The notes beneath the pieces are model-generated. The model was not told where the DNA came from and searched no databases. It saw only the letters and a program-made list of their open reading frames with translations. From positions 186,001-250,000 of the forward strand of contig NZ_JANIPD030000023.1 of NCBI RefSeq assembly GCF_024609215.1: a DNA stretch of 64,000 bases. Direction: 5' to 3'. Source of the stretch: Curtanaerobium respiraculi. GTDB lineage: Bacteria > Actinomycetota > Coriobacteriia > Coriobacteriales > Eggerthellaceae. Position numbers and translations under genes: made by a program. Positions 29,535 through 45,694 of the stretch are shown piece after piece (within the stretch, counting starts at the first letter, position 1; each line of letters starts with the position of its first letter).

Positions 29535-30077
29535 CTATCGCCTGCTTGGGGAGAAATCCTCCTCCAACATGCTGAACCAAATTAGGTCGACGAATCCAGC
29601 ACCGCCCTTATTCGCCATCCCATCTCGAGAAACGCCTTCCCGGAGGAATCCGACCTTGTCGTAGAACGCGATAGCCCGAGTATTGTCCGCCCTTACGTCA
29701 AGGAACACCCGATGAAGATGCAACTCTTCGAAGGCATAGCGGAGAACATCGATCGTCGCACCGTACGCAGCACCTGTCCCATGGGCGCACCTTCGGGTGC
29801 TGATCGCATATTCTGCACTTCGATTGACCATGTCGATGTGCTTCAGACTGACCGTTCCGAGATAAGCATCGTTCTGGTCCGTGATGGCAAAATGGCGCGA
29901 TTCGGTCGTTTCAGCGCTCTCCTCGATGAACCGTTCGGCTTCCGCGATTCCAAATGAAGAAAAATCGACTTGAAACCAATTGGCAACGTCGCCATCCCCC
30001 ATCCATTCGAGCATACCATCGGCATCTCGCTTCTCAAGCGGGCGGATGGAACCGTATGTTATTGCCTTATCGGACAC
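29535..30077 (-). CDS. RimJ/RimL-type GNAT acetyltransferase
   Basis: A 180-residue GNAT protein. GSIRPLEKRDADGMLEWMGD opens the fold, HFAITDQNDAYLGTVSLKHI is the central sheet, and LHLHRVFLDVRADNTRAIAF with YDKVGFLREG is the acetyl-CoA and C-terminal motif. The usual motif A RGKG is weak here (RRCAHGTGAAYGAT). GTG 30077 with AGGGG. Its place in a locus making a dTDP-3-amino sugar suggests N-acetylation of a sugar amine, although the known FdtC enzyme is a beta-helix protein. That role is a guess. Confidence 0.75.
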   Translation of the reverse strand: MSDKAITYGSIRPLEKRDADGMLEWMGDGDVANWFQVDFSSFGIAEAERFIEESAETTESRHFAITDQNDAYLGTVSLKHIDMVNRSAEYAISTRRCAHGTGAAYGATIDVLRYAFEELHLHRVFLDVRADNTRAIAFYDKVGFLREGVSRDGMANKGGAGFVDLIWFSMLEEDFSPSRR

Positions 30078-30114: not shown

Positions 30115-31401
30115 TCACTGCCGTGCAGCATCACTAATGATATCTTCCAGTATCAATTGCGGCGCAGAGCTCAGCGTGTCGCCCCAAATTTCTTCAATAA
30201 TCTCGCGCCGCATATCCCGCAGCGGGTCTTCCCCCGCCGACAGCATCGTTACATAATCCGACACCTCATCGAAGGTGTGGGCAATATACATGCCATCGAG
30301 CATGCGGTTGAGGGTTTCCACGTAATCTGGAGCGCCTATGCCAGTCGGAGGGCAAAAGACCACTGGTTTCCCTGTGACAAAATACTCAAACAGCACACCG
30401 GAGATATCGGTAACAAGAGCATTCGAGCTCCAGAACGAAGCCGCATATTCACCGCTCTCGTCGAGAACGACATTGCTCAACGCCCTGCACGCCCGCCGAT
30501 ACTCCTTGACTTGCTCTGCTGTCATTTCCCCCGTTTTCACAAAATGCGGGAAGGTCAAGGGATGCGGTCTGAACAGAAAGCAAACATCCTCTCTACGCTG
30601 CGCCAGATCGAGAAACAGCTTTTCATAGACGAGGAAGTTGCTACCCCCTACGACTGGATCCGTCGACCAACGTGGGGTCCATATAACCTTGAACTGTCCG
30701 GTATGATTGCCCCACGCGCCGGAATCCGCAGAATCCTTCCGCTCCACCATATTGGTAACCCCTGGATAGCCTAGGAAAATCGACCTCTGAGCGGTGTTTC
30801 GCTGAATGTCGCTCTGGTAAAACTCAAGGTCCTCGGAAGTCGATGCATAATAGCAATAGCAGTATGCATAAAAATCCTTGTTCATCACGGGAGCAACCTG
30901 CGTCTTGTTTGTATGCATGCCATACAGAATGTTGCACACTTTTGAGTAGGAACTCACGACGCTGCTTCTATAACACCTGGGAAGATACACATTATACGGT
31001 CGTGAGTAGAACGTATATGCGCAGTTGAGTTCACGCAGGTCCAACCAACTTCCATCTGACTGCTTCGCGTTCACGCACTCATATCCCTTGCCTTGGAAGA
31101 ACCGAAGGACATCGTTCTCGTCCGGCGCGCACCCAAGGTCATTGGGAACGCATACGATGACAGGCCGCGTCCTCTCATCGGCAAGAAGCAACGCATACAG
31201 CGACTCGAACTTGTTCCAAGCTTGCACATATTGCATGAGAAAGCAAACCTTGACCGGCAGGACACCTGGTTGTACCCGTTCTTTTTCCAATCGGAACTGT
31301 CGACGCGCATGGAAATACGCGTAGCGATTCGCGGCCCTTCTGTAAAGACGGGCTAAGTCCGGAACAGCCGCCGCAAGCGCATCTTTAATATCACTTTGCA
31401 T
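30115..31401 (-). CDS. CDP-glycerol glycerophosphotransferase-family protein
   Basis: A 428-residue, GT-B-like protein. The C-terminal half has the family marks FLFRPHPLTFPHF (RPHP near 285) and ALVTDISGVLFEY (TDxSSV-type donor site), as in TagB/TagF/TarL teichoic-acid enzymes that polymerise glycerol- or ribitol-phosphate at the inner membrane face. No membrane segment is evident. ATG 31401 has GGAGG. It lies upstream of the acetyltransferase gene and 34 bases after the flippase gene. With a TagD domain encoded at 37243, a CDP-glycerol-type donor could be made locally. Confidence 0.72.
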   Translation of the reverse strand: MQSDIKDALAAAVPDLARLYRRAANRYAYFHARRQFRLEKERVQPGVLPVKVCFLMQYVQAWNKFESLYALLLADERTRPVIVCVPNDLGCAPDENDVLRFFQGKGYECVNAKQSDGSWLDLRELNCAYTFYSRPYNVYLPRCYRSSVVSSYSKVCNILYGMHTNKTQVAPVMNKDFYAYCYCYYASTSEDLEFYQSDIQRNTAQRSIFLGYPGVTNMVERKDSADSGAWGNHTGQFKVIWTPRWSTDPVVGGSNFLVYEKLFLDLAQRREDVCFLFRPHPLTFPHFVKTGEMTAEQVKEYRRACRALSNVVLDESGEYAASFWSSNALVTDISGVLFEYFVTGKPVVFCPPTGIGAPDYVETLNRMLDGMYIAHTFDEVSDYVTMLSAGEDPLRDMRREIIEEIWGDTLSSAPQLILEDIISDAARQ

Positions 31402-31435: not shown

Positions 31436-32872
31436 TTAGCGGATCTTTTCAACCAATGTCATAATCTGTTTTCTGCGGATCAGGCCGACAACGGCAAGCG
31501 CCGCAAGGGCGATCGCGCGCAGAAGCACATACGGGTACAGCGCCATTCCAACGAATCCCAATACAACGAACACGCCCAAAATCGCAAGAAGTTGATGCAA
31601 ATCATAGGCATCCTGTGCCTTCCCCTGGATAGACAGGGTCTGCTTCAGCGCCAGATAATTGCTTCCCGCAAACACAATATAACTGGCAAAAGTCGTATAA
31701 CCAGCTGCAACAAACCCGAATATCGGAATGAGCCACGCATTCAAGAGGATATTCAAAACCGCAGCGCCAATGGATGCGAAAACCAAATGGCGTTTCTGCT
31801 CGTAATAAAACTCGACATTGATGAAGAGCTGCGCGTAGAACAACAGCAGCAAGCTCATCGCAATCGGCGGAATCACGTAGGCGGCCTTGGCGTACCGGGA
31901 ACCGCCCAGAATGAAGACCAATTCGGGTGCGAGCCAATCGACCATCAGGACCAAAGCCGCCAGCAACCCCGCAATGGCGGTAGCGACCGGCTTGTTCTCG
32001 GATTGGGCTCCCACTTTGATTTTCCCATACAACCAGGGAATGTATGAGTTATTGATCGCATTCAGCAAAAACGTGAGCACCATCGCTATGTTGTAGGCAA
32101 CACCGTACAGAGCTGCCGCGTCCGGTCCGACAATCGCGTTGATCATGAGCCGGTCGGACTGGTTGAAAACCACCTGAGACAGGTAGTAGGCTAGCAACGG
32201 AATGTTGAACGCAAGCGCATACTTCCAAAAACGCTTCTCGAACACGCGCCTGCCCTGGACGAGGTTGAACACGAACACGGCACCGCCGAGCACGATATTC
32301 GTTATTGCAATCCCCAGGATGTACGCATAGCCCTTCTCGTTTGTATTCAATACCAGCAGCAGGGCCACGAGCGGGGCGATTGCGGCATTCGCCAGATTGA
32401 GCGCAACCACTCCCTTGTACTTGTATTCGAACTGTTTTTTACCGCACCATAAGGCGATGCCATACTGCCCTACGATTTCGAGCACCATCACGATAATCAG
32501 GGGCGTGGGCAAATCGAAAAGCATATTCCACAGGTCGGCGAAGGAAAGGTAGACCGCAACGAATATGGCGGCGAGGGCGAGGCAGATTCCCTCCACCGAC
32601 GCAATATAGGCATCACGCTCGCTTTCGAATTTGGCCATGGCGGGCGCGAACGACCCATACGCCAGATTTAGCGTGATGAAAATGCAGACAATGCTCTCCC
32701 ACGACAGGTAAATGGTGAACTGCCCGTACTGCTCAGTTGTGAGCAGGCGCGTGAACAGAGGGAGCGTGAGAAACGCAATACCCTTCTGCAAGATGCTAGA
32801 AACTGCGTACGCTGACGCAGCCTTAGCGGGCAAAGGAACATTTTGTGTTTTCCGTTTAAGAGCATTCAGCAT
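31436..32872 (-). CDS. Wzx-type oligosaccharide flippase
   Basis: A 478-residue MOP/PST-superfamily membrane protein with about fourteen hydrophobic segments. The N-terminus has AYAVSSILQKGIAFLTLPLF then TRLLTTEQYGQFTIY, a standard signature of polysaccharide flippases, and a matching internal repeat begins near WKYALAFNIPLLAYYLS. It should move undecaprenyl-linked repeat units across the membrane. A Wzx implies a Wzy polymerase elsewhere; none is certain in the window, although the multi-span protein at 48786 is a candidate for another role. Confidence 0.88.
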   Translation of the reverse strand: MLNALKRKTQNVPLPAKAASAYAVSSILQKGIAFLTLPLFTRLLTTEQYGQFTIYLSWESIVCIFITLNLAYGSFAPAMAKFESERDAYIASVEGICLALAAIFVAVYLSFADLWNMLFDLPTPLIIVMVLEIVGQYGIALWCGKKQFEYKYKGVVALNLANAAIAPLVALLLVLNTNEKGYAYILGIAITNIVLGGAVFVFNLVQGRRVFEKRFWKYALAFNIPLLAYYLSQVVFNQSDRLMINAIVGPDAAALYGVAYNIAMVLTFLLNAINNSYIPWLYGKIKVGAQSENKPVATAIAGLLAALVLMVDWLAPELVFILGGSRYAKAAYVIPPIAMSLLLLFYAQLFINVEFYYEQKRHLVFASIGAAVLNILLNAWLIPIFGFVAAGYTTFASYIVFAGSNYLALKQTLSIQGKAQDAYDLHQLLAILGVFVVLGFVGMALYPYVLLRAIALAALAVVGLIRRKQIMTLVEKIR

Positions 32873-36141: not shown

Positions 36142-37215
36142 TTAGAGCAGTCCGCGTTTGTTCATGTCGGCAAAAGCCGCTTCCAATGCGGCGGTGTCCT
36201 GAGCGGAAATCGTGCCGATGTGGCCCACACGGAAGACTTCGTCGGCAAGGGAGCCCCCGTTGGGGCACAACCAGATTCCGTATTCATCCTTCATGGTGTC
36301 GTTGATTGAGCGGGCGCCCACGTTCAGAGGATGCAGCGCTGTGACTGTGTTCGACGGACTTTCCGACACCAGCTCAAAGGGATAGTCGGCTATGAACGTG
36401 CGGAAACGCCGGGCTCGGCCGCGAATGACCGCCTGCTCGGCTTCGACACCGCCCGCCGCTTCGATTGACTTGAGACGTGCGTTGATTTCCAGCAGCGTGG
36501 TAACTGCCGGCGTGAAAGGAGTCTGACCGCGCGCGCCGTTGCTCAACGCCTGTTTCAAACTCAAGTACAGGCACTTCTCGGGATTCTTCTCCACCCATTC
36601 AATCGCCTGCGGGGCAAGCGCCACCACGGCAATGCCAGGATGCACGGCTAGGGCCTTCTGCGATCCCGTGATCACCACTGCCGCGCTCAGGGCCGTCATA
36701 TCGAGTTCGTCGGAAATGAAGGCGCTGATGGCATCGACCACCAGCAGCATGCCGTTCGCCTGACAGAACTCGGCGATCAGCGGCATGTCGTACAGCGTGC
36801 CAGAAGACGTTTCGTCCATATTCACCAACAGCGCGGTAAAACCCTGGCCGGTGCATTCCCCCAATTGTTCCGCACGTATCTGATGGCCGAATGGCACCTT
36901 GATCTCTAGATACTCCAAACCGTGCAGTGCGCACAGGTCCACGAATCGCTGGCCGAAACTACCGCCGTTCACCACCAGCACCTTGTCGTCGGCGCTGAGT
37001 ACGTTCATGACAACGGACTCCATGGCCCCCGTTCCCGACGTGGTCAGGAACACGCAACGGCTCCCCTTCGGCGCATGCAGGAATCGCAGCATAAGCCGCT
37101 CGTTCTCGAGCATGGTCTGGGAGAACTCGGGCGTGCGAAAGTACGGCGCGGACTGGCTGCCTACCTTCAGCACCTGGGATTCGGACATTACAGGACCTAC
37201 CGTGAAATTCAGCAT
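36142..37215 (-). CDS. Class V aminotransferase (PhnW/AgxT-like)
   Basis: A 357-residue fold-type I PLP enzyme. MLNFTVGPVMSESQVL and FLTTSGTGAMESVVMNVL are typical of alanine-glyoxylate and 2-aminoethylphosphonate transaminases. VDAISAFISDELDM holds the PLP-binding Asp, and the Schiff-base lysine is in ITGSQKALAVHPG. ATG 37215. It lies directly downstream of the cytidylyltransferase fusion gene, 27 bases apart. No phosphonate genes (pepM, ppd, phnX) are present, so a true phosphonate role is doubtful. An amination step giving an amino-alcohol phosphate or related head group is plausible inference. Confidence 0.8.
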   Translation of the reverse strand: MLNFTVGPVMSESQVLKVGSQSAPYFRTPEFSQTMLENERLMLRFLHAPKGSRCVFLTTSGTGAMESVVMNVLSADDKVLVVNGGSFGQRFVDLCALHGLEYLEIKVPFGHQIRAEQLGECTGQGFTALLVNMDETSSGTLYDMPLIAEFCQANGMLLVVDAISAFISDELDMTALSAAVVITGSQKALAVHPGIAVVALAPQAIEWVEKNPEKCLYLSLKQALSNGARGQTPFTPAVTTLLEINARLKSIEAAGGVEAEQAVIRGRARRFRTFIADYPFELVSESPSNTVTALHPLNVGARSINDTMKDEYGIWLCPNGGSLADEVFRVGHIGTISAQDTAALEAAFADMNKRGLL

Positions 37216-37242
37216 GGAAAAGCCTTTCGCACACATTCGCGC

Positions 37243-38589
37243 TTACGCCAGCTCGAACAAATCGTTCTTTGCGTAGAAGTCAGCAATGATCCCGGACGTC
37301 GCCAGCGAGACCGCATCGTCTATATATGCATCGGTTTTGCCAGTCTGAATCTGCTTCAGGAAATCGACGAGCATGTAACGGATTCCCTCGCCGTCCAACT
37401 TATAAAAATACCGCTTTGTATCGGCTAGGTCTTCGTAGCGCACTTCAAAATACTCGGTCTTCCACCAGGGCGACGGCACGTACACGTATCCGCACGTCCC
37501 GGTGATCACTAAGTCGCCTTCCGATTTGGCTCCCTTACCAACCTTGATCGAAGCGACAGCGTGGGGGTAAAGGAAGTCGATCTTGGTGAACGAGTCGAAC
37601 TCTTTACCGGGATCTGCAAAATGGGTGACGATACGTTTCGAGAGGTATTCCGTTCCCAGCAGTTGGAACACCGGTAGCAGTGCCGTAGGACCCCACTCGC
37701 AGATACTGTTCCACACGCGCGACATCTGGCGCTCGTCGTCAACATCGACCGCACGCAGGCTGGTGCAGGCGGCATCTACCGAGCGCACTTGGCCGATGCG
37801 TCCGCTCTTCACCAGCAGCAGCAAACGCTCGTAGGCCATGGAATAAGCTGTGCGCAGGGCGTTCACCAGCACGCAGCCCTTCGACTGCGCAAGAGAGCGC
37901 AGCTCGCGCTCTCGATCAGGGTCGGTAACCACGGGCGACTCGCACAACACATGCACGCCCGCCTCCAACGCCTTCCTGATTTGCTCGTAATGCTCGCTCG
38001 GGTGCGAAATCAGAAAGACCGCGTCTACGGAATCCAGCAGCTCATCGTAGTCCTCTGTGACCACCGGCAAATCCCGTAGATCTTCGGGAACGACTTCTAC
38101 ATCGCTCGAGAACACGCCTCGCACGTCGATTCCGTTCACATACGCGCTTTCCCGTAGGAACTTGGCCAAGTACGCATGGCTGCCGACCAGGCCCATGCGC
38201 AGTGCACGCTTGTCGGAGCGAATCTGCGTGCTGGAAACTCCCTGCGTGCGCGGCAGGTACACGACTTTGCAGAACTCGTTTAGATAGTCGAAATTCCCAA
38301 CCCAATCGTTGCCGACCGTGAAGATGTCGATGCCCAAGCGCTTGATGTCATCGATCTTCTGGCCTTCGTATTCTTCCACGATAATCTCGTCGGCAAGGCC
38401 GGTCTCACGCACGGCGGCAATGCGCTCAATAAGCGATTGCTGCACGTTGATTTTGCCGCGCGCACGGTCGAAGTCATCGGACGTTACGCCCACGACCAGG
38501 TAATCACCTAAGGCTTTCGCCCGCTCGAGCAAGCGAATATGTCCTCGATGGAGCAGGTCATAGGTACCGTAGGTGATTACCTTTGTCAT
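37243..38589 (-). CDS. TagD-like cytidylyltransferase fused to Gfo/Idh-like oxidoreductase
   Basis: A 448-residue two-domain protein. Residues 1-130 are a glycerol-3-phosphate-type cytidylyltransferase: TYGTYDLLHRGHIRLLERA with HxGH, and RTQGVSSTQIR. From about 133 on is a Gfo/Idh/MocA-like domain (LRMGLVGSHAYLAKFL, AVFLISHPSEHYEQIRKAL). In that family a lysine follows Cys-Glu in the EKP motif; here it reads CESPVV, so the catalytic Lys is absent. It abuts the NCS1 gene without any gap. I infer it makes a CDP-activated small alcohol, with the second domain modifying or sensing it. Confidence 0.8.
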   Translation of the reverse strand: MTKVITYGTYDLLHRGHIRLLERAKALGDYLVVGVTSDDFDRARGKINVQQSLIERIAAVRETGLADEIIVEEYEGQKIDDIKRLGIDIFTVGNDWVGNFDYLNEFCKVVYLPRTQGVSSTQIRSDKRALRMGLVGSHAYLAKFLRESAYVNGIDVRGVFSSDVEVVPEDLRDLPVVTEDYDELLDSVDAVFLISHPSEHYEQIRKALEAGVHVLCESPVVTDPDRERELRSLAQSKGCVLVNALRTAYSMAYERLLLLVKSGRIGQVRSVDAACTSLRAVDVDDERQMSRVWNSICEWGPTALLPVFQLLGTEYLSKRIVTHFADPGKEFDSFTKIDFLYPHAVASIKVGKGAKSEGDLVITGTCGYVYVPSPWWKTEYFEVRYEDLADTKRYFYKLDGEGIRYMLVDFLKQIQTGKTDAYIDDAVSLATSGIIADFYAKNDLFELA

Positions 38590-40026
38590 TTACACGATCT
38601 CCAAATCATCCCTGTCGCGCAGCATGATGTCCCTGAGTGAGGGGACCTTCGACGCGAGCCAATACAGGAATCCGCCGAACACCGCGGTGAAACCCGAGCC
38701 GGTGGTGAAGTTGAAGACCACGCTCTGAATCTCGCCAGTGACGGGGTTGTAGACCATGAACAGCGCAACGAACAGCGTGAGCAGGATCACCACAACGCCA
38801 ATCCAGTTGAACCCGCCCTTGAAGTCGTAGGCGTCGTGGCCTTCCTGGTAATAGAGGCTCTTAATCGAGAACCTGCGCTTGCGCAGGATGATGTAGTCCA
38901 CGAACATAATGCCGATGATGGGACCCTGGATGTAGGCGGCGATGGAGATGAACTGTCCGAAGTTCGCCGTAACCTGGCCGGAGTAGGTGAGCACGGCAAC
39001 GTAGATGGCGGAAAGCAGCACGAGCACCTTGTAGTCGACCTTAGGCCATGCGGCCTTGAGCACCATGTCGTTCACGTAGCCGCCCACGGCCTGGGTGCCG
39101 ATGTTCGCAAACGCGACCAGCATGAGGGACAGCAGAGCGACCTGCGGCCCCAAGGTTGCCAGCATGACGGTGGGGTCGTCCACATACACACCCGTGGTGA
39201 CGAACATGACGATGGCCATCACACCTCCGATGAACACAAAGAACGGCGCCACGATCGCATACCCTGCAAAGGTACCCCAGTAGCCGCCGCGCTCGGTTTT
39301 AGAAAGACGCGGCAGAACGATCGCTTGGGTGGACCAGCTGAAGGAGAACGCCGCCATTCCCTCGGCCGCCATTGCATACGCCTCAAAATTGTTGCCACCC
39401 ACGGATGACAAATCCGGCCTGTAAGCGATGACCTGATCTATCGGCGCTATGGTGAAGCACATAAAAAATACGATGACCCCGATGGCGAGCAGCAGCGTGA
39501 CCAGGATACGCGACGTCCATTTGATGGCGGAAGGACCGGCGATCGCGATAAGCGATCCTCCTGCCACGCTGATGATCGAAATCCACCGTACGGCCTTGTC
39601 CGGAACGATAATCCCGAATCCAGCGCAAATCTGAGCAATCGAGGATCCGAACATGTTCGCAGCAACCGCATACCAAAACCAGTTCCCCAGTATGACGAGA
39701 GTTGCGAACACCTTCACACCGTTCTTCCCCAAAACGGCGCGGAGATACACCCAAAGATCCACCCCATAGCGCACGGCGAAGATAACCGGCAAGCATTCAA
39801 TGATGAGGAAGATGCCGCCCATTGCGAATGTGACGATAAGCGTCTGCCAAAAATCGAGATAACTCGCAGAGAGGGCTCCCTGCGAATAGCACAAAGTTGC
39901 GATGGCAAAGCCACTCGTTACAAGAAGCGTATCCCAAAAACCGTACGAGCGCTCACTCTTCTTGACCGGAACGAGCCCGAATATGGTTTCCTGGTTGACG
40001 TATTCCTCCATGGTCTGCTTGGACAT
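38590..40026 (-). CDS. NCS1-family permease
   Basis: A 478-residue transporter with twelve predicted membrane segments. The N-terminal ERSYGFWDTLLVTSGFAIAT and IQGPIIGIMFVDYIILRKRR are hallmarks of the nucleobase:cation symporter-1 family (CodB/PucI/thiamine type). VGGYVNDMVLKAAWPKVD lies in the second half. ATG 40026 follows GGGAGGTGAG. It lies between a small membrane protein gene and the TagD fusion. By analogy with lic loci, where a LicB choline permease fills this slot, it may import choline or another head-group precursor; a nucleobase is the default family expectation. Confidence 0.82.
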   Translation of the reverse strand: MSKQTMEEYVNQETIFGLVPVKKSERSYGFWDTLLVTSGFAIATLCYSQGALSASYLDFWQTLIVTFAMGGIFLIIECLPVIFAVRYGVDLWVYLRAVLGKNGVKVFATLVILGNWFWYAVAANMFGSSIAQICAGFGIIVPDKAVRWISIISVAGGSLIAIAGPSAIKWTSRILVTLLLAIGVIVFFMCFTIAPIDQVIAYRPDLSSVGGNNFEAYAMAAEGMAAFSFSWSTQAIVLPRLSKTERGGYWGTFAGYAIVAPFFVFIGGVMAIVMFVTTGVYVDDPTVMLATLGPQVALLSLMLVAFANIGTQAVGGYVNDMVLKAAWPKVDYKVLVLLSAIYVAVLTYSGQVTANFGQFISIAAYIQGPIIGIMFVDYIILRKRRFSIKSLYYQEGHDAYDFKGGFNWIGVVVILLTLFVALFMVYNPVTGEIQSVVFNFTTGSGFTAVFGGFLYWLASKVPSLRDIMLRDRDDLEIV

Positions 40027-40038
40027 GCCCTCACCTCC

Positions 40039-40212
40039 CTACAGGAATTCGCCGATAACAAGCAGAATGAGGGAAACGATAGGGCAAGCGACGATCAGCG
40101 CCCAGTCCACCTTCCCCAACGCCCGGGGGAACTCATAACCGGACTCTTCCATGATCGCCAGGCGTTCGCGAACCTCGCGATCGAGCTCTTCTTCAAAGTT
40201 ATTATCCGGCAT
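40039..40212 (-). CDS. 57-residue single-pass membrane protein
   Basis: It begins MPDNNFEEELDREVRERLAI, an acidic amphipathic helix, and ends in one hydrophobic segment (WALIVACPIVSLILLVIGEF). ATG 40212 has an ideal AAGGAGAG site, and the stop lies 12 bases before the NCS1 start codon, which itself has its own ribosome site. The arrangement resembles small accessory subunits encoded next to secondary transporters. No family recognised. Confidence 0.75.
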   Translation of the reverse strand: MPDNNFEEELDREVRERLAIMEESGYEFPRALGKVDWALIVACPIVSLILLVIGEFL

Positions 40213-40283
40213 TAACTCTCCTTCGGCCGTCTCGGGGATTTTTTACGATGCGCCGCACGCAAGCGCCGCAGCACGCAGAAGAA

Positions 40284-42044
40284 TCAGTCGCTAAGGCACA
40301 GCTCCGCGTACCTCTTCGCCGAGCGATACCAGAGGTAAACCCACGACCCGACTTGACCGCCTTCAGACTGCTTGTAAAGAGCCCAGACGTACCAATAGTA
40401 CGAGCAGATAGCCACGTATCCGAAGCAATGACGCATCTCTTCGGGAGTCGGGGTTCGCCCGAAATATTCCCGCACGACGCCTTCCGCCTCCTTTGGGGTA
40501 TAGTCGGAACAGCATATGAACGTGCCCAAATCACTCGCGTAATCTGCCATCGCGGAATACTCCCAATCGATGAGATCCATCCCACTTGCGTGGACAAGGA
40601 AGTTCGGGGCGTACATATCATTGTGGCACAGGCACAGTCTGTCCGCATCGGAAGCGACCAGGTCATGCACTCGGTCGATGCTCTGGGTAAGGGAGTCAAA
40701 GTCGACGGGCTTCGGATACGATCTATCCTCTAGGGATTCGACGATCTCGCGAGCCTTTGCGTACACGTCGAATGACCACTCCGACTTGACATCGCAGGTG
40801 TGAAGCTTGCGAGCTATGCCGAGAGCGGCAGAAACGTGCGCGGGATCGTGGTAATCGAACGGAACGCAGTCCTTGATGAAATACGACAGTTTCCAACCGT
40901 GCTCGGAATCTTCATAGAGAAACGTCGAGTCGACACCCAGATCCTTCGCCACCTTCTGGGAGAATGCTTCGCTATCCCTGCAGATTATCGCCTCCGTGCC
41001 AGAACCGGGATGCCGATAGACATAGGTCTTTTCGCGAAGCGAGAATCGAAAGGAAAGGTTTGTGATCCCTTCCTTGATGGGAACGACGTTCGAAAGGTCT
41101 TCGCGATCGCACGAAAAGAAATTACAAATGTTGTCCAAAATAGATGAGTCGACATTCGCGAGGAAGTCTTTATCGAATGCTCGGACGTCCTCCAGCGAAT
41201 CGAACTCGAAAATTATACCTGACTCGTATTCTTTGCGTGCCATCGACAGTTCATGGACATGCTCAGCGAAGATATCCTCCCAGAGTTTCGGAGCAGTTTC
41301 GGGCAGATCGTATTCGGCTTCCAATATTTCGACGAACTTCTTCGAGAACGCCCGGTCGAAGTAGACATGCCCCAGCATGCACCACGCATCATTCCCCCCA
41401 TTCACACCAACCTTGGTGATACGTCCATGAGGTCCGGTTTCAACTACGTATTCGTCAGTCGGGCCCGCGAAAAAGACCGTCGAATAATACGCCCGATATA
41501 CGTAGCGCGTGAAGGGATTCTGGGTGAAATAGTCATCCGACGAGCAGATGTAGGTATTGCCGAGGATATTGCGCACCAGATGGAGGGTCGAATTATTGTT
41601 GCGCTCGGCAAAATGCTCATTGACAACGATCTTCACACCGAATAGGTCCTCCAGGTAGAAGAAAGCCTCTTTCATGTAGCCGACGACCAACGTGATATCC
41701 GTAATTCCGGCTTCGTGCAGCTGGCGAATTTGCCGTTCGATCAGAATCTCGCCCCGAATGCGCATCATACCCTTCGGTTTTTCGTACGATAGGGGAACGA
41801 AGCGTGAAGAGAGTCCTGCGGCCATGATTACTGCGTTTTCGACACGGTAGGGTTCGAGCGCAGTAACACCCGACTCGGTAATCCCCTCGCGGCCAGCAAG
41901 CCCGTCTTTCACGCATCGAGAGAACGCTTTGTTGACCGTACCCAACGAAAGACCCGTCATACGAGCCATCTCCCGCTGGGGCATGGAGGAGCCAGCGGTA
42001 TCCAACGCCTGGAGAACCTTGAATGAATTCTCATCAAGTTGCAC
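40284..42044 (-). CDS. HTH-LicC-LicA fusion: choline kinase/cytidylyltransferase
   Basis: A 586-residue three-part protein. Residues 1-65 form a winged helix (MPQREMARMTGLSLGTVNKA). Residues 68-300 are a LicC-type nucleotidyltransferase with AVIMAAGLSSRFVPLSYEKP and SSDDYF as metal site. Residues 320-586 are a LicA-type choline/ethanolamine kinase, with the catalytic loop LCLCHNDMYAPNFLVH and MDLIDWEYS. Kinase plus cytidylyltransferase would turn choline (or a similar alcohol) into its CDP form for a LicD transferase. GTG 42044 follows AGAGG. It heads the gene group running to 36142. Confidence 0.88.
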   Translation of the reverse strand: MQLDENSFKVLQALDTAGSSMPQREMARMTGLSLGTVNKAFSRCVKDGLAGREGITESGVTALEPYRVENAVIMAAGLSSRFVPLSYEKPKGMMRIRGEILIERQIRQLHEAGITDITLVVGYMKEAFFYLEDLFGVKIVVNEHFAERNNNSTLHLVRNILGNTYICSSDDYFTQNPFTRYVYRAYYSTVFFAGPTDEYVVETGPHGRITKVGVNGGNDAWCMLGHVYFDRAFSKKFVEILEAEYDLPETAPKLWEDIFAEHVHELSMARKEYESGIIFEFDSLEDVRAFDKDFLANVDSSILDNICNFFSCDREDLSNVVPIKEGITNLSFRFSLREKTYVYRHPGSGTEAIICRDSEAFSQKVAKDLGVDSTFLYEDSEHGWKLSYFIKDCVPFDYHDPAHVSAALGIARKLHTCDVKSEWSFDVYAKAREIVESLEDRSYPKPVDFDSLTQSIDRVHDLVASDADRLCLCHNDMYAPNFLVHASGMDLIDWEYSAMADYASDLGTFICCSDYTPKEAEGVVREYFGRTPTPEEMRHCFGYVAICSYYWYVWALYKQSEGGQVGSWVYLWYRSAKRYAELCLSD

Positions 42045-42421
42045 GTTTGCCTCTTCTCATATGGGCATCGAGCTGCACGTTCAGAAATGCCGAAAAGAGA
42101 ATAGACCCTGAACAAGCACGTGCGAATCGGTCCGACGATTATTCACTCAACCTTCAACCGAGAGGCGCAAAGGAAACGAGAATCGGGAAGAACCATAAAT
42201 CGTCCCCCGACCACTCAAGTCGGTTGAGCATTAGCCAATCCGGCGAATCGCAGCCTATGGCAAACCGCTCGCCGACCGGCGAGCACAGTTCCGCGCTCCT
42301 TTTTGCAGCCTAAGAATTTCTGCCCAACATTCGTACCATCTTCCAGTGGGGTACGATTTTCGCTTATCCAGCGCTTGGAACGCTTGCACCATAGAATAAG
42401 AACCGCACCTGCAAAATCAAT
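42045..42421. other. Intergenic region holding a perfect GC hairpin
   Basis: GCTCGCCG (42267-42274) and CGGCGAGC (42277-42284) pair perfectly around a two-base centre; no T run follows. The rest should include the promoter of the lic fusion gene, but no convincing -10/-35 pair was picked out. Confidence 0.4.
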
Positions 42422-44251
42422 CTAGTAGTACACGTGAACCGTCGTGCCTAGGGGAACGTTATCGTAAATCCATCGCGCATTATCGACATCAACGCGAACG
42501 CAGCCGTGGGAGAGATAACGATACGAGCCGAGCTCATTTCCAGTCCCCAGTATGCTGTGGATAAAATACGCCCCGTAGAACTGCGTGCACCACCGCGCTG
42601 TGTATGCAGTACTCAGGTGTGGCTTACGGGATAGTGTCGAGAACGTCCCCGTCACCGTTGGCGTAGAAGGCTTTCCCGGACTCGCCAGCCAATAGTACCA
42701 ATTTGACCAATTCCCCTGCGAACCCGAATAGATTCCCATCATCGCGGTTGAAAGATTGATCATGATGAGCTTGTCCGTCGCACTCCACAGCCCTTGCGCA
42801 GCCTGGTTCATGTACCAATGCGCAGGGGGCGTACTCTTTGTCAGAACGCCATCGTTATCGCTGTGGTACCAGGTAGACCCTTGGTTGATGAAGTCGTTTC
42901 GCAAGACGTAACCCTGGCCGCCTACTCCGTAGTACTTCTTTCCATCTACTTTGAAGAACGAAGTCCGCATAGCATGATCCGAACCAATGTAATAGTATCG
43001 TTGCCAACCCCCGTCGTACTTTTTCGTGACAAGCCAGCCGTCCTTACCATCGGGAGTACTGGCAAGAACGCCGTTTTTGTCGGCGACATAAACGCGAGCA
43101 TGCCCATTGTCCCACTTCCCACGAACGATACATCCGTCAGGCCTTGCGTAGGAATAGCAACCTGCCCCCTCTTCAGGGGTGATAAGGCGATCCTTCGCAA
43201 CCTGTGCATCCGAGGCAACCCACTGCCATTCTCGACCATGCGATGTGAGAGTGGTTAGCCATCGCGGCTCAAAAGGTAGTTTCACCCCGTCGACAGCACG
43301 CCAGGCAATCCCCTCGGGAATCCATCCAATGCGAGCAAGAGCACGATCTTCAACTTCGGAAGTGGTGAAGTTGTGAGCACCCGCTACCGCATTGGGATTG
43401 TATTGGCGCAGGACGGCAAGCCCCGACTCGTCATGCGAATACCAGCCGACTCCCTCATAGATCCAGCCTTTAGAGCGCAATGAATTCCGCTCTTTGACGG
43501 AAACGGTGTAATGATGGTCCCCGGCGTTGGGATTGTAAAGGCGGTACACGGGGAAAGACGACTTCTTCGGGGCAACCCAGCCGACCCCTTCCCACACCCA
43601 CCCCGCACGGGTCACATTCTCTGCCTCTTTCTCGCTCGAAGTGTAGAAATGCTCACCGCTATTTGGGTTGTAAAGGCGGATCATATTGACGCAGTTCTCT
43701 GCAGGATCAGATTTGGGAGCAGGCTTCGCAGCGGACTTCGCCATAGGCTTTGCAGAATCAATAGCGGCTTCATCAGTGGTTTTCTCCACCGCGTCAACCT
43801 TAGCGTGACTTTCTGCTTTTACGGAAGCCTTTGCGGAGCTCGAAGTCTCGTCAACCAATGCGCCAGCCGATGCCGATTTGGTCTCTCCCGTTACTTCGGA
43901 TTGCGGCTTGCTCGCCATCCCAACAGTCTTTTCGTCCTTCTTCACGGATGAATCGGGCGTATTTTGCGTATCGATCGCGGGTGCAATCGCATTCGAGTCC
44001 CCGGCCTGGGAGGCGGAGGAAGACGATCCGTTTTCGGATGGCTCGGAAGAAGGCTTGGCTTCGACGGCTCCAGAGGTACCAATTTTAGAAGGCGTATCAA
44101 TGATAACAGCCGGTTCATCCACTGATCTGGAAGAAGCAATCTCGTCAGCAAACGCGTACGATCCGCACGACAGCATTAAAGCTATAGCGATACATGCCGA
44201 AACGAAAACGAGAAAACTGGATGACAGGGTCTTTCGATTAGGACTGTTCAC
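42422..44251 (-). CDS. Secreted L,D-transpeptidase with triple DUF5648 wall module
   Basis: A 609-residue exported protein. Signal peptide about 1-35 (FVSACIAIALMLSCGSYAFA), then an acidic Ser/Ala/Lys-rich linker to about 185. Three DUF5648 repeats follow (YNPNSGEHFYTSS, YNPNAGDHHYTVS, YNPNAVAGAHNFTTS). Then comes a region of short wall-binding-like repeats (GKKYYGVGGQGYVLRNDF), and finally a YkuD domain with catalytic SHGCVRVD (Cys about 584, His about 582). YkuD enzymes form 3-3 peptidoglycan cross-links or attach proteins to the wall. It shares its repeat module with three other secreted proteins in the window. Confidence 0.9.
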   Translation of the reverse strand: MNSPNRKTLSSSFLVFVSACIAIALMLSCGSYAFADEIASSRSVDEPAVIIDTPSKIGTSGAVEAKPSSEPSENGSSSSASQAGDSNAIAPAIDTQNTPDSSVKKDEKTVGMASKPQSEVTGETKSASAGALVDETSSSAKASVKAESHAKVDAVEKTTDEAAIDSAKPMAKSAAKPAPKSDPAENCVNMIRLYNPNSGEHFYTSSEKEAENVTRAGWVWEGVGWVAPKKSSFPVYRLYNPNAGDHHYTVSVKERNSLRSKGWIYEGVGWYSHDESGLAVLRQYNPNAVAGAHNFTTSEVEDRALARIGWIPEGIAWRAVDGVKLPFEPRWLTTLTSHGREWQWVASDAQVAKDRLITPEEGAGCYSYARPDGCIVRGKWDNGHARVYVADKNGVLASTPDGKDGWLVTKKYDGGWQRYYYIGSDHAMRTSFFKVDGKKYYGVGGQGYVLRNDFINQGSTWYHSDNDGVLTKSTPPAHWYMNQAAQGLWSATDKLIMINLSTAMMGIYSGSQGNWSNWYYWLASPGKPSTPTVTGTFSTLSRKPHLSTAYTARWCTQFYGAYFIHSILGTGNELGSYRYLSHGCVRVDVDNARWIYDNVPLGTTVHVYY

Positions 44252-44680
44252 AGAGCACTCCTTCTACTTAACTGCGATAGCAACCATAGATGTATGTATA
44301 GTCTATCTTAATTTGGAAACACGTAAGCTAGAAAATTGATGCGACGAGTAGCGCCTCATCGAACTCGATTGCAGAGATTGCAGCAGCGCGATCAAACCCC
44401 CAGGGAAATCGATCTGATTTTCCAGCCTGCCCACCAAGATAGCATTCGCACCTTCTGCGCTCTTGCAACCTCTACAATGCGTCGCTCGGAGCGATATGGC
44501 AGCCGCGGGCACAATAGCATATGTATAGAAAATGCCGTATCGAACCTCACGTATCTATCTGCATTTGCATCGCTTTCTGTCTCTTCTTCATTGCGGAAGA
44601 TGGGCTCGAAGGACGGTGGATGATGGGCTGCTATACTTTCGTTCCACTACGAAAACCTCTTCAAGGAACGGGGAGTTGCC
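44252..44680. other. 430-bp intergenic region, divergent promoters expected
   Basis: It separates the minus-strand L,D-transpeptidase from the plus-strand glycosyltransferase remnant. A TATACT at 44632-44637 precedes the latter. No gene or strong hairpin was recognised; GC is lower than in the flanks. Confidence 0.35.
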
Positions 44681-44815
44681 ATGAGGATCCTCCATGTCAT
44701 TGGAGCCATGGACCAAGGCGGCGTCGAGACATTCATCATGAACGTCTATCGCAGAATCGATACATCGCTCCTTGAAGGCTTCTACGTTCGAGCTTATCAA
44801 GACGCAACCACCTAA
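44681..44815 (+). pseudogene. N-terminal stub of a GT4 glycosyltransferase
   Basis: 44 codons beginning MRILHVIGAMDQGGVETFIM, then NVYRRID, the donor-side GxGGxE-type opening of GT4/GT1 enzymes such as polysaccharide glycosyltransferases. The frame leaves homology at about TSLLEGFYVRAYQ and stops at 44815. It retains a start codon and GGAACGGGGAG ribosome site. The rest of the gene has been lost, with LicD now directly downstream. Confidence 0.65.
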
Positions 44816-44836
44816 TACGAGGATAAGGAATCTGAA

Positions 44837-45694
44837 ATGGGAGATAATCCCTATCCGAATTCAACTCTTCAACGCCTGCAAGACGTTGAACGTGAGATCT
44901 TGGCAATTATCGATAAGATCTGTCGGCGGAACGACATCGATTACTTTATCGATGGAGGCACTTGCCTAGGCGCGGTTCGCCATGGGGGATTCATTCCCTG
45001 GGATGACGACATAGATATCGGCATGCCTTACAGTGACTACATGAGGTTCTGCGAAATCGCCCCCCTCTTGCTTCCCGAGGGATACTCTCTTCATACTTCT
45101 ACGAACACAAAAGGGTTTTCCGCGCTTTGGGTTAAGGTGTTCAAAGATGGAACGCGTTTCATCGACGACAATGCCCAAGAAGCAGGCTGCAATCAGGGGA
45201 TATTCGTCGACGTATTCGCTTACTGCCAACTTAATGCAAACGAGAACATCGCGAAGAAGCAATGCGCACGCGCACGTAAGGCACAGGTGAAATCGTACCT
45301 CAAACATTTCTCTCGCCCCAAATTGCCCAAAGGAACCCCCGCGAGACATCTTGTTTCATTTGCATGCAAGCTTATACATGCAAGCGTTGCAAAATTATGG
45401 TCGCAAGATGAATTGCAGCGCGCATTCGACCGCTCATTCGATTCGAACAATCCGGGTAAGCGGTGGATTGAAGCAGCTTATCCCGATTGGGGATCGCATG
45501 ATGCAGAAACATTGTTCCCAACCCAGGATATACGTTTCGACGAACTCACCGTGCGAGCACCCCATAACTGCGACGCATATCTTTCGACGCTGTATGGCGA
45601 CTGGCGGCAGGTTCCCCCTTCTGATGGACGATACACCCATGCGCCTGTGATTCTGGATTTCGGAGACGGGGCCAACGTTATGGATGTGCGATGA
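44837..45694 (+). CDS. licD: LicD-family phosphotransferase
   Basis: A 285-residue protein of the LicD/fukutin-related family, which moves phosphocholine (or related phospho-alcohols) from CDP donors to glycans such as teichoic acids. The N-terminal core ILAIIDKICRRNDIDYFIDG, GTCLGAVRHGG and IPWDDDIDIGM, with the DDDID metal motif near residue 56, is intact. FVDVFAYCQL and the final HAPVILDFGDG are conserved. ATG 44837 follows AAGGAATC. It is the likely acceptor-side partner of the LicC-LicA fusion at 40284. A decayed relative lies at 35659. Confidence 0.88.
   Translation: MGDNPYPNSTLQRLQDVEREILAIIDKICRRNDIDYFIDGGTCLGAVRHGGFIPWDDDIDIGMPYSDYMRFCEIAPLLLPEGYSLHTSTNTKGFSALWVKVFKDGTRFIDDNAQEAGCNQGIFVDVFAYCQLNANENIAKKQCARARKAQVKSYLKHFSRPKLPKGTPARHLVSFACKLIHASVAKLWSQDELQRAFDRSFDSNNPGKRWIEAAYPDWGSHDAETLFPTQDIRFDELTVRAPHNCDAYLSTLYGDWRQVPPSDGRYTHAPVILDFGDGANVMDVR

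Follow-up and report, generated by a model that had tools for sequence, protein, structure and literature searches.

Two candidate CDP-amino-alcohol modules side by side in a putative surface-glycan locus of Curtanaerobium respiraculi

Results

Organization of the five-gene run

The window analyzed here, a 64,000-nucleotide stretch from Curtanaerobium respiraculi (assembly GCF_024609215.1, contig NZ_JANIPD030000023.1, positions 186,001 to 250,000), carries a minus-strand run of five genes with the hallmarks of cytidine diphosphate (CDP) activation of amino-alcohols. A first-pass annotation, made from the sequence alone, had treated the run and a nearby LicD gene as a single decoration pathway. 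All open reading frames that it named were recovered at the same positions, each of those given a family name scoring above its own Pfam cut-off, and both the tight spacing and the proximity of LicD were borne out. In the order of transcription, HTH-LicC-LicA is followed by a 57-residue membrane protein, an NCS1 permease, a TagD-Gfo/Idh fusion and a class V aminotransferase, with intergenic gaps of 71, 12, 0 and 6 bases. LicD lies on the opposite strand, 2,792 bases from LicC-LicA and 6.2 kb from TagD-Gfo. The genes are listed below, with the division into two modules that their distribution supports.

36142..37236, minus strand: class V aminotransferase, module 2; Aminotran_5 50.5 bits (Pfam); best solved-structure match 3f0h
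37243..38589, minus strand: TagD-Gfo/Idh fusion, module 2; CTP_transf_like 67.6 and GFO_IDH_MocA 55.6 bits (Pfam)
38590..40026, minus strand: NCS1-type permease, module 1; Transp_cyt_pur 63.4 bits (Pfam cut-off 23.5)
40039..40212, minus strand: 57-residue protein with a single hydrophobic stretch, module 1; no Pfam family matched
40284..42044, minus strand: HTH-LicC-LicA fusion, 586 residues, module 1; HTH_24 32.9, NTP_transf_3 38.5 and Choline_kinase 63.6 bits (Pfam)
44837..45694, plus strand: LicD-family transferase; LicD (PF04991) 131.3 bits

Distribution separates two modules

Gene distribution was determined in 296 evenly drawn Coriobacteriia genomes, with the window's own genome included in the counts and thresholds of E ≤ 1e-50 for LicC-LicA, E ≤ 1e-50 for TagD-Gfo and E ≤ 1e-80 for NCS1. 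LicC-LicA matches occur in 103 genomes, TagD-Gfo in 20 and an NCS1 homologue in 7; LicC-LicA is present in 12 of the 20 TagD-Gfo genomes versus 91 of the remaining 276. The complete five-gene set was seen together in two genomes only, the window's own and G002, where the same two blocks are permuted (aminotransferase, TagD-Gfo, LicC-LicA, 57-residue protein, NCS1). Linkage cannot be read in G011 or G292, where the pieces are split between contigs. In four genomes of a single genus (G092, G103, G115 and G215) roughly 1 kb separates LicC-LicA from TagD-Gfo, but the permease there is of the EamA type. Because each module recurs alone and all five genes are joined in so few genomes, the run consists of two separable modules placed side by side. 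A single five-gene set, as first proposed, is rejected on this distribution; the co-occurrence expected in other Coriobacteriia fails for the five as a unit and holds for each module.

Module 1 resembles Lic-1 with an exchanged permease

The HTH-LicC-LicA fusion comprises a winged helix, a CTP:phospho-amino-alcohol cytidylyltransferase and an amino-alcohol kinase, and matches the solved structures 1jyk (E 1.5e-36) and 4r77 (E 1.4e-23). Equivalents of the LicC residues Asp107 and Glu216 are present in the cytidylyltransferase, as are those of the LicA residues Asp176 and Asp194 in the kinase, whose Choline_kinase score compares with a cut-off of 29. Like the Lic-1 system (LicA, LicB, LicC and LicD), the unit thus combines both domains, catalytic residues included, with a LicD gene in the locus, 2.8 kb away. 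Unlike Lic-1, it has LicA and LicC fused to each other and to a winged helix, with NCS1 and the 57-residue protein in place of LicB and no EamA match within 1.2 kb of LicC-LicA. A further departure is Tyr199 at the position of pneumococcal LicC Trp136, which we take to be part of the choline box.

The permease belongs to the NCS1 family and falls well short of its TIGR00800 subfamily (65.5 bits versus 353.1). Five of the seven NCS1 homologues, those of at least 73% identity, with the window's among them, have LicC-LicA no more than 0.5 kb away, in keeping with the earlier suggestion that NCS1 stands in for LicB; the other two, at 54–55% identity, are on contigs other than those of the listed LicC-LicA genes. 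A match to the 57-residue protein lies directly upstream of the NCS1 homologue in all seven loci (E ≤ 4e-9), and this small protein therefore looks like a dedicated subunit. The permease would import ethanolamine or choline.

To place this exchange in context, permeases were recorded within 1.2 kb of 79 LicC-LicA genes from the examined loci, most of them high in the match list (more exist among the 296 genomes). The neighbor is EamA (LicB-like) in 50 cases, EutH in 10, NCS1 in 5 and none of these in 14. EamA labels derive from tblastn with two EamA-cluster proteins; of two cluster members submitted to Pfam, one matched EamA (57.9 bits) and the other nothing; three EutH proteins scored 387–409 bits (cut-off 25) for the family that Pfam names ethanolamine utilisation protein. 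On a quick-method tree of the 79 proteins, with Shimodaira–Hasegawa-like approximate likelihood-ratio (SH-aLRT) support, the window's LicC-LicA falls in a clade of 27 genes (support 99) holding 9 of the 10 EutH-linked genes, all 5 NCS1-linked genes, 11 of the 14 without a permease and 2 of the 50 linked to EamA. The four labels require 14 changes on this tree, compared with 27.4 after shuffling, and none of 200 shuffles gave a value as low.

The residue at the LicC Trp136 position follows the same division. It is Trp in all 52 proteins outside the window's clade; inside, once a permease-less clade of seven genes is set aside, it is Tyr in 16 of 20 and Trp in 4. That supported seven-gene clade (L182:8439, L221:3001, L240:2989, L244:2992, L245:2998, L246:2965 and L247:3025) has no tested permease adjoining and mostly a residue other than Trp at this position. 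Our numbering offset is consistent with Asp105, Arg129, Asp192 and Glu216 as named in PMC6697681, which describes an aromatic box in LicC for choline and quotes an earlier study in which LicC favors phosphocholine over phosphoethanolamine 2700-fold.

Because the window's LicC-LicA shares a clade with nearly all EutH-linked genes, and EutH is an ethanolamine permease, the unit more likely handles ethanolamine than choline; Tyr in place of Trp136 agrees with this assignment. The original remark that the amino-alcohol was perhaps not choline is thereby strengthened.

Module 2 pairs a TagD-Gfo fusion with a PLP enzyme

The TagD-like cytidylyltransferase occupies residues ~1–126 of the fusion and the Gfo/Idh domain residues ~127–448. 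TagD finds its best structural match in 1coz (E 4.3e-34) and shares the HxGH motif, kept in all 83 aligned sequences, and the RTxGxS(S/T) motif with glycerol-3-phosphate cytidylyltransferases. Unlike these, it is fused to Gfo/Idh, is paired with a pyridoxal phosphate (PLP) enzyme and scores below the TIGR01518 cut-off for glycerol-3-phosphate cytidylyltransferase (112.2 bits versus 165.4). Elsewhere the same genome has another TagD-like gene (G000:C6:116014-116388, L117) that shares 47% identity with the TagD domain, so TagD-Gfo is not the sole candidate maker of CDP-glycerol.

The Gfo/Idh domain belongs to its Pfam family, and the predicted model of the fusion (predicted local distance difference test score 90.9) matches the Gfo fold. 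In Gfo/Idh oxidoreductases the lysine of the EKP motif is catalytic. It is conserved in all four PDB relatives compared and is replaced by Ser218 in the window's fusion; it is missing from 101 of 102 aligned fusion sequences and from 104 of all 106 fusions examined. Just 7 of 83 sequences retain the second GxGxxG glycine of the loop.

Two fusions retain the lysine, those of Escherichia coli E04 and G320, and neither stretch has a match to a class V or HisC-like aminotransferase. The lysine-less fusions L079 and L263 have a short-chain dehydrogenase/reductase (SDR) instead of a PLP partner, and these SDRs are 58% identical. A search for more lysine-present fusions in samples of 396 and 296 genomes added one, G320. 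A plasmid search returned only the Ruminococcus albus copy and a search of phage records only three unannotated faecal contigs, all lysine-less; no relative of the E. coli fusion turned up among viral contigs. DNA searches, which overlook distant copies, found the fusion in one of 5,426 E. coli genomes; in five more the match was confined to a 114-base piece of a TagD gene. The E04 glycan locus (L250:6757-18364) is flanked on both sides by insertion sequence elements. Elsewhere, L178 (from G215) shows a fusion match lacking the TagD part (query 150-441) and no PLP partner match, perhaps a decaying copy.

A genome scan with the TagD-Gfo alignment returned at least 579 relatives, of which the best 80 were studied; together with the 20 Coriobacteriia loci they form a set of 100, many of them metagenome-assembled. 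By record title, the scan reaches Bacteroidales, Clostridia, Erysipelotrichaceae, Elusimicrobia, Methanobrevibacter and others, and named carriers include Prevotella/Segatella, Faecalibacterium prausnitzii, Ruminococcus albus, Lachnospiraceae and Methanobrevibacter. A PLP partner lies within 3.2 kb of TagD-Gfo in 92 of the 100 loci: 61 have class V alone, 29 only a HisC-like class I enzyme and 2 both, compared with about 20 expected to have both if the two were used independently. Neither is present in 5 loci, and 3 lack room to judge. The partner is on the same strand and at most 200 bases away or overlapping in 78 of the 92. A quick-method TagD-Gfo tree needs 22 changes of partner label, compared with a shuffled mean of 24.7; starred branches force at least 11 of them, and close sister fusions such as L165/L169 can differ in partner type. 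With partners swapping this freely, two unrelated PLP folds appear to serve one step.

In the window's aminotransferase, the presumed Schiff-base lysine, K194, is Lys in 49 of 50 aligned homologues and X in one. Members of three GNAT or methyltransferase families (>150 bits) lie within 3 kb in 20 of the 100 loci, as expected if the module 2 product carries an amine.

Several loci depart from the simple pair. At L113:3985-5799 a LicC-like NTP transferase and a CobD/HisC-like PLP enzyme form one 604-residue protein, in one locus with a HisC-like gene and TagD-Gfo and near LicC-LicA; it is possibly a third CDP-amino-alcohol route. Four loci with the class V and TagD-Gfo pair (L037, L038, L040 and L055) also contain another gene, weakly similar to LicC, and an additional class V aminotransferase match, a pair that is perhaps of the phosphonate type. 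In a faecal contig (L264:1-917) the aminotransferase match is in two pieces, perhaps through a sequencing error or a broken gene.

Transferases and glycan setting

LicD does not accompany module 2 constantly, contrary to what had been supposed. Counting scores of >100 bits within 6 kb of TagD-Gfo, it is found in 39 of the 68 loci with 5 kb or more on each side and in 14 of the 20 Coriobacteriia loci, the window's own LicD, 6.2 kb off, scoring as a miss. The Ruminococcus albus 7 plasmid pRUMAL01 carries the order LicD, class V aminotransferase, TagD-Gfo, LicD, GNAT, LicD. LicD is a candidate transferase for either CDP product.

A glycan block at 29.5–34.4 kb supplies another candidate:

29535..30077, minus strand: GNAT acetyltransferase, same glycan block; Pfam; 43% identical in L095
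30115..31452, minus strand: PF04464-type (CDP-glycerol transferase-like) enzyme; weak match, 30.8 bits versus cut-off 22.1
31436..32872, minus strand: Wzx-type flippase of the glycan locus; Polysacc_synt; gene 50% identical in L095
32933..34033, minus strand: DegT-type sugar aminotransferase (3-amino-6-deoxysugar); Pfam; 69% identical in L095
34037..34441, minus strand: FdtA-type sugar 3,4-ketoisomerase; Pfam; 82% identical in L095

The FdtA, DegT and GNAT families point to a glycan with a 3-acylamino-6-deoxysugar. Six other loci (L063, L078, L079, L081, L089 and L095) have a relative of the PF04464-type gene no more than 1.2 kb from TagD-Gfo, and L095 repeats the block of FdtA, GNAT, DegT, flippase, PF04464 and TagD-Gfo. 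Five relatives, L079 not among them, were submitted to Pfam; four scored above the cut-off and L078 below it (the L081 check used a second copy, 2.2 kb away). This recurrence favors the earlier idea that a second CDP product might be used by the enzyme at 30115, which is a candidate user of the module 2 product.

The G+C content drops at ~28–30 kb, from 0.63–0.69 in window positions 1–28000 to 0.51–0.58 in 30000–64000, so that the glycan locus appears foreign to the DNA around it. Between LicC-LicA and LicD, at 42422-44251, lies an L,D-transpeptidase with a DUF5648 domain, and G002 likewise has a YkuD-protein match near its module.

Discussion

The first-pass gene calls were right, and gene content bears out the idea that an amino-alcohol is activated with CDP for a surface glycan; what did not survive is the joint five-gene unit. 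The run is two modules, of which module 2 is the interesting part. Our best explanation, in which we have roughly even confidence, is that the locus serves a surface glycan bearing a 3-amino-6-deoxysugar and sets a salvage module for CDP activation beside a de novo one.

The analysis shows gene identities, catalytic residues, recurrence of the modules, exchange of partners and absence of the Gfo lysine; substrates and products, reaction direction, what the Gfo domain does and which donor each transferase uses are inferred. In module 1, NCS1 and its small membrane partner would import an amino-alcohol, ethanolamine more likely than choline; LicA would phosphorylate it, LicC would form the CDP derivative, and regulation of the unit probably falls to the fused winged helix. 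In module 2, the aminotransferase would make a small amino-alcohol phosphate that TagD would convert to its CDP derivative, the Gfo domain, its catalytic lysine lost, perhaps serving in binding or shaping. LicD, the PF04464-type enzyme or both would then transfer the phospho-amino-alcohol to the glycan.

The best candidate for the module 2 product is 2-aminoglycerol (serinol) phosphate, made from dihydroxyacetone phosphate. The SerC (class V) and HisC (class I) families both include enzymes that aminate a ketone beside a phosphorylated carbon; dihydroxyacetone phosphate is probably the smallest common metabolite of this substrate shape and would yield serinol phosphate. A PLP enzyme makes serinol phosphate in Campylobacter jejuni capsule synthesis, and PLP enzymes of the C. 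jejuni serinol/ethanolamine pathway likewise lead to small amino-alcohols in a surface polysaccharide. The linkage there is an amide to glucuronic acid, unlike the CDP activation and LicD/PF04464 transfer suggested here. Glyceramide or glyceric-acid phosphate was considered as an alternative product, and one literature search gave nothing relevant.

A number of observations weigh against parts of this explanation. Two EamA-linked genes sit inside the EutH-rich clade and one EutH-linked gene, on a long branch, outside it. Trp251, Trp254 and Tyr197, by which Spn-LicA holds choline according to PMC4364537, have equivalents in nearly all members of both LicC-LicA groups; this keeps choline in contention, and the LicA pocket was rejected as a discriminator between choline and ethanolamine. 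Likewise, nearly every member of either group has Glu in place of LicC Asp192, a pocket change without power to separate them. The window's aminotransferase is closest to the models of BhcA and PhnW, which act on aldehydes, so a primary amine fits as well as serinol. Of 97 loci with room upstream, 4 have none of the three partner types (class V, HisC-like or SDR). The Gfo domain is strongly conserved, with K355, E357 and WW..YFE invariant, and may still be catalytic. The lysine-present class consists of two sequences only; the main genome scan used lysine-less queries and kept the best 80, which biases the 104:2 ratio. E04 also carries a DegT-type PLP enzyme, which we assign to its amino-sugar.

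A catalytic Gfo domain would suit oxidation after activation, in which TagD forms CDP-glycerol, Gfo oxidizes this product to a ketone or aldehyde still linked to CDP, and amination by the aminotransferase yields CDP-aminoglycerol. GnnA/GnnB and WlbA/WlbE oxidize and then aminate UDP-sugars, and they share with module 2 a Gfo-fold protein and a PLP enzyme in a glycan locus; here, in contrast, the CDP-forming domain is fused and the partner is class V or HisC-like, not DegT. With the EKP lysine and the second GxGxxG glycine so rarely kept, we consider this route rather unlikely. Both modules might instead converge on CDP-ethanolamine, LicC-LicA by salvage and the aminotransferase de novo from glycolaldehyde phosphate, with TagD as phosphoethanolamine cytidylyltransferase. 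The likeness of the aminotransferase to aldehyde-aminating families fits, TagD also matches 3elb, and the CobD model likewise picks up the HisC-like partner, CobD-type decarboxylation giving a primary amine; yet that partner scores higher with HisC (237.2 bits versus 155.3, both under cut-off), TagD is far nearer 1coz (124.5 bits) than 3elb (53.6), and the modules occur apart, making this version improbable.

Tight packing of the run is what speaks for the integrated choline pathway framed at first, which the scarcity of the joined set and the recurrence of each module alone render very improbable. A phosphonate (Pnt) pathway to CMP-aminoethylphosphonate could draw on LicC-like and PhnW-like genes occurring together, as for surface tailoring by PntC-AEPT (PMC6697681). 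Unlike in that system, the cytidylyltransferase paired with the aminotransferase is TagD-like; the aminotransferase scores 129.9 bits against the PhnW-AepZ (2-aminoethylphosphonate aminotransferase) cut-off of 360.8, and the best phosphoenolpyruvate mutase match in the window's genome reaches 18.9 bits against a family cut-off of 31.5. The phosphonate route is hardly credible, and we reject it.

Beyond salvage and de novo activation at this locus, we tentatively propose, as a broader and more doubtful view, an undescribed CDP-amino-alcohol pathway widespread in gut bacteria and methanogens. TagD, a retired Gfo domain and an exchangeable class V, HisC-like or SDR enzyme would make CDP-2-aminoglycerol or a relative, which LicD or PF04464-type enzymes would attach, sometimes N-acetylated or N-methylated; the rare fusions with the Gfo lysine would need no partner, and NCS1 with its 57-residue subunit would be a new ethanolamine importer replacing EutH and LicB. 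A literature search by titles and abstract openings, in which subscription journals fall mostly outside, gave among the matches listed no TagD-Gfo and PLP pair, no CDP-serinol and no EutH- or NCS1-linked LicC-LicA, and the available text of the survey PMC10434233 has no word starting with EutH or ethanolamine.

Phosphocholine and related zwitterions on surface glycans affect host recognition. If correct, our interpretation would add a second, de novo CDP-amino-alcohol module in common gut groups, leading to new phospho-amino-alcohol decorations and providing a gene marker for them. The permease-swap tree offers a testable rule for separating ethanolamine-type from choline-type LicC-LicA units, and, should a larger sample bear it out, the link between the Gfo lysine and the partner enzyme would be a clear case of enzyme retirement.

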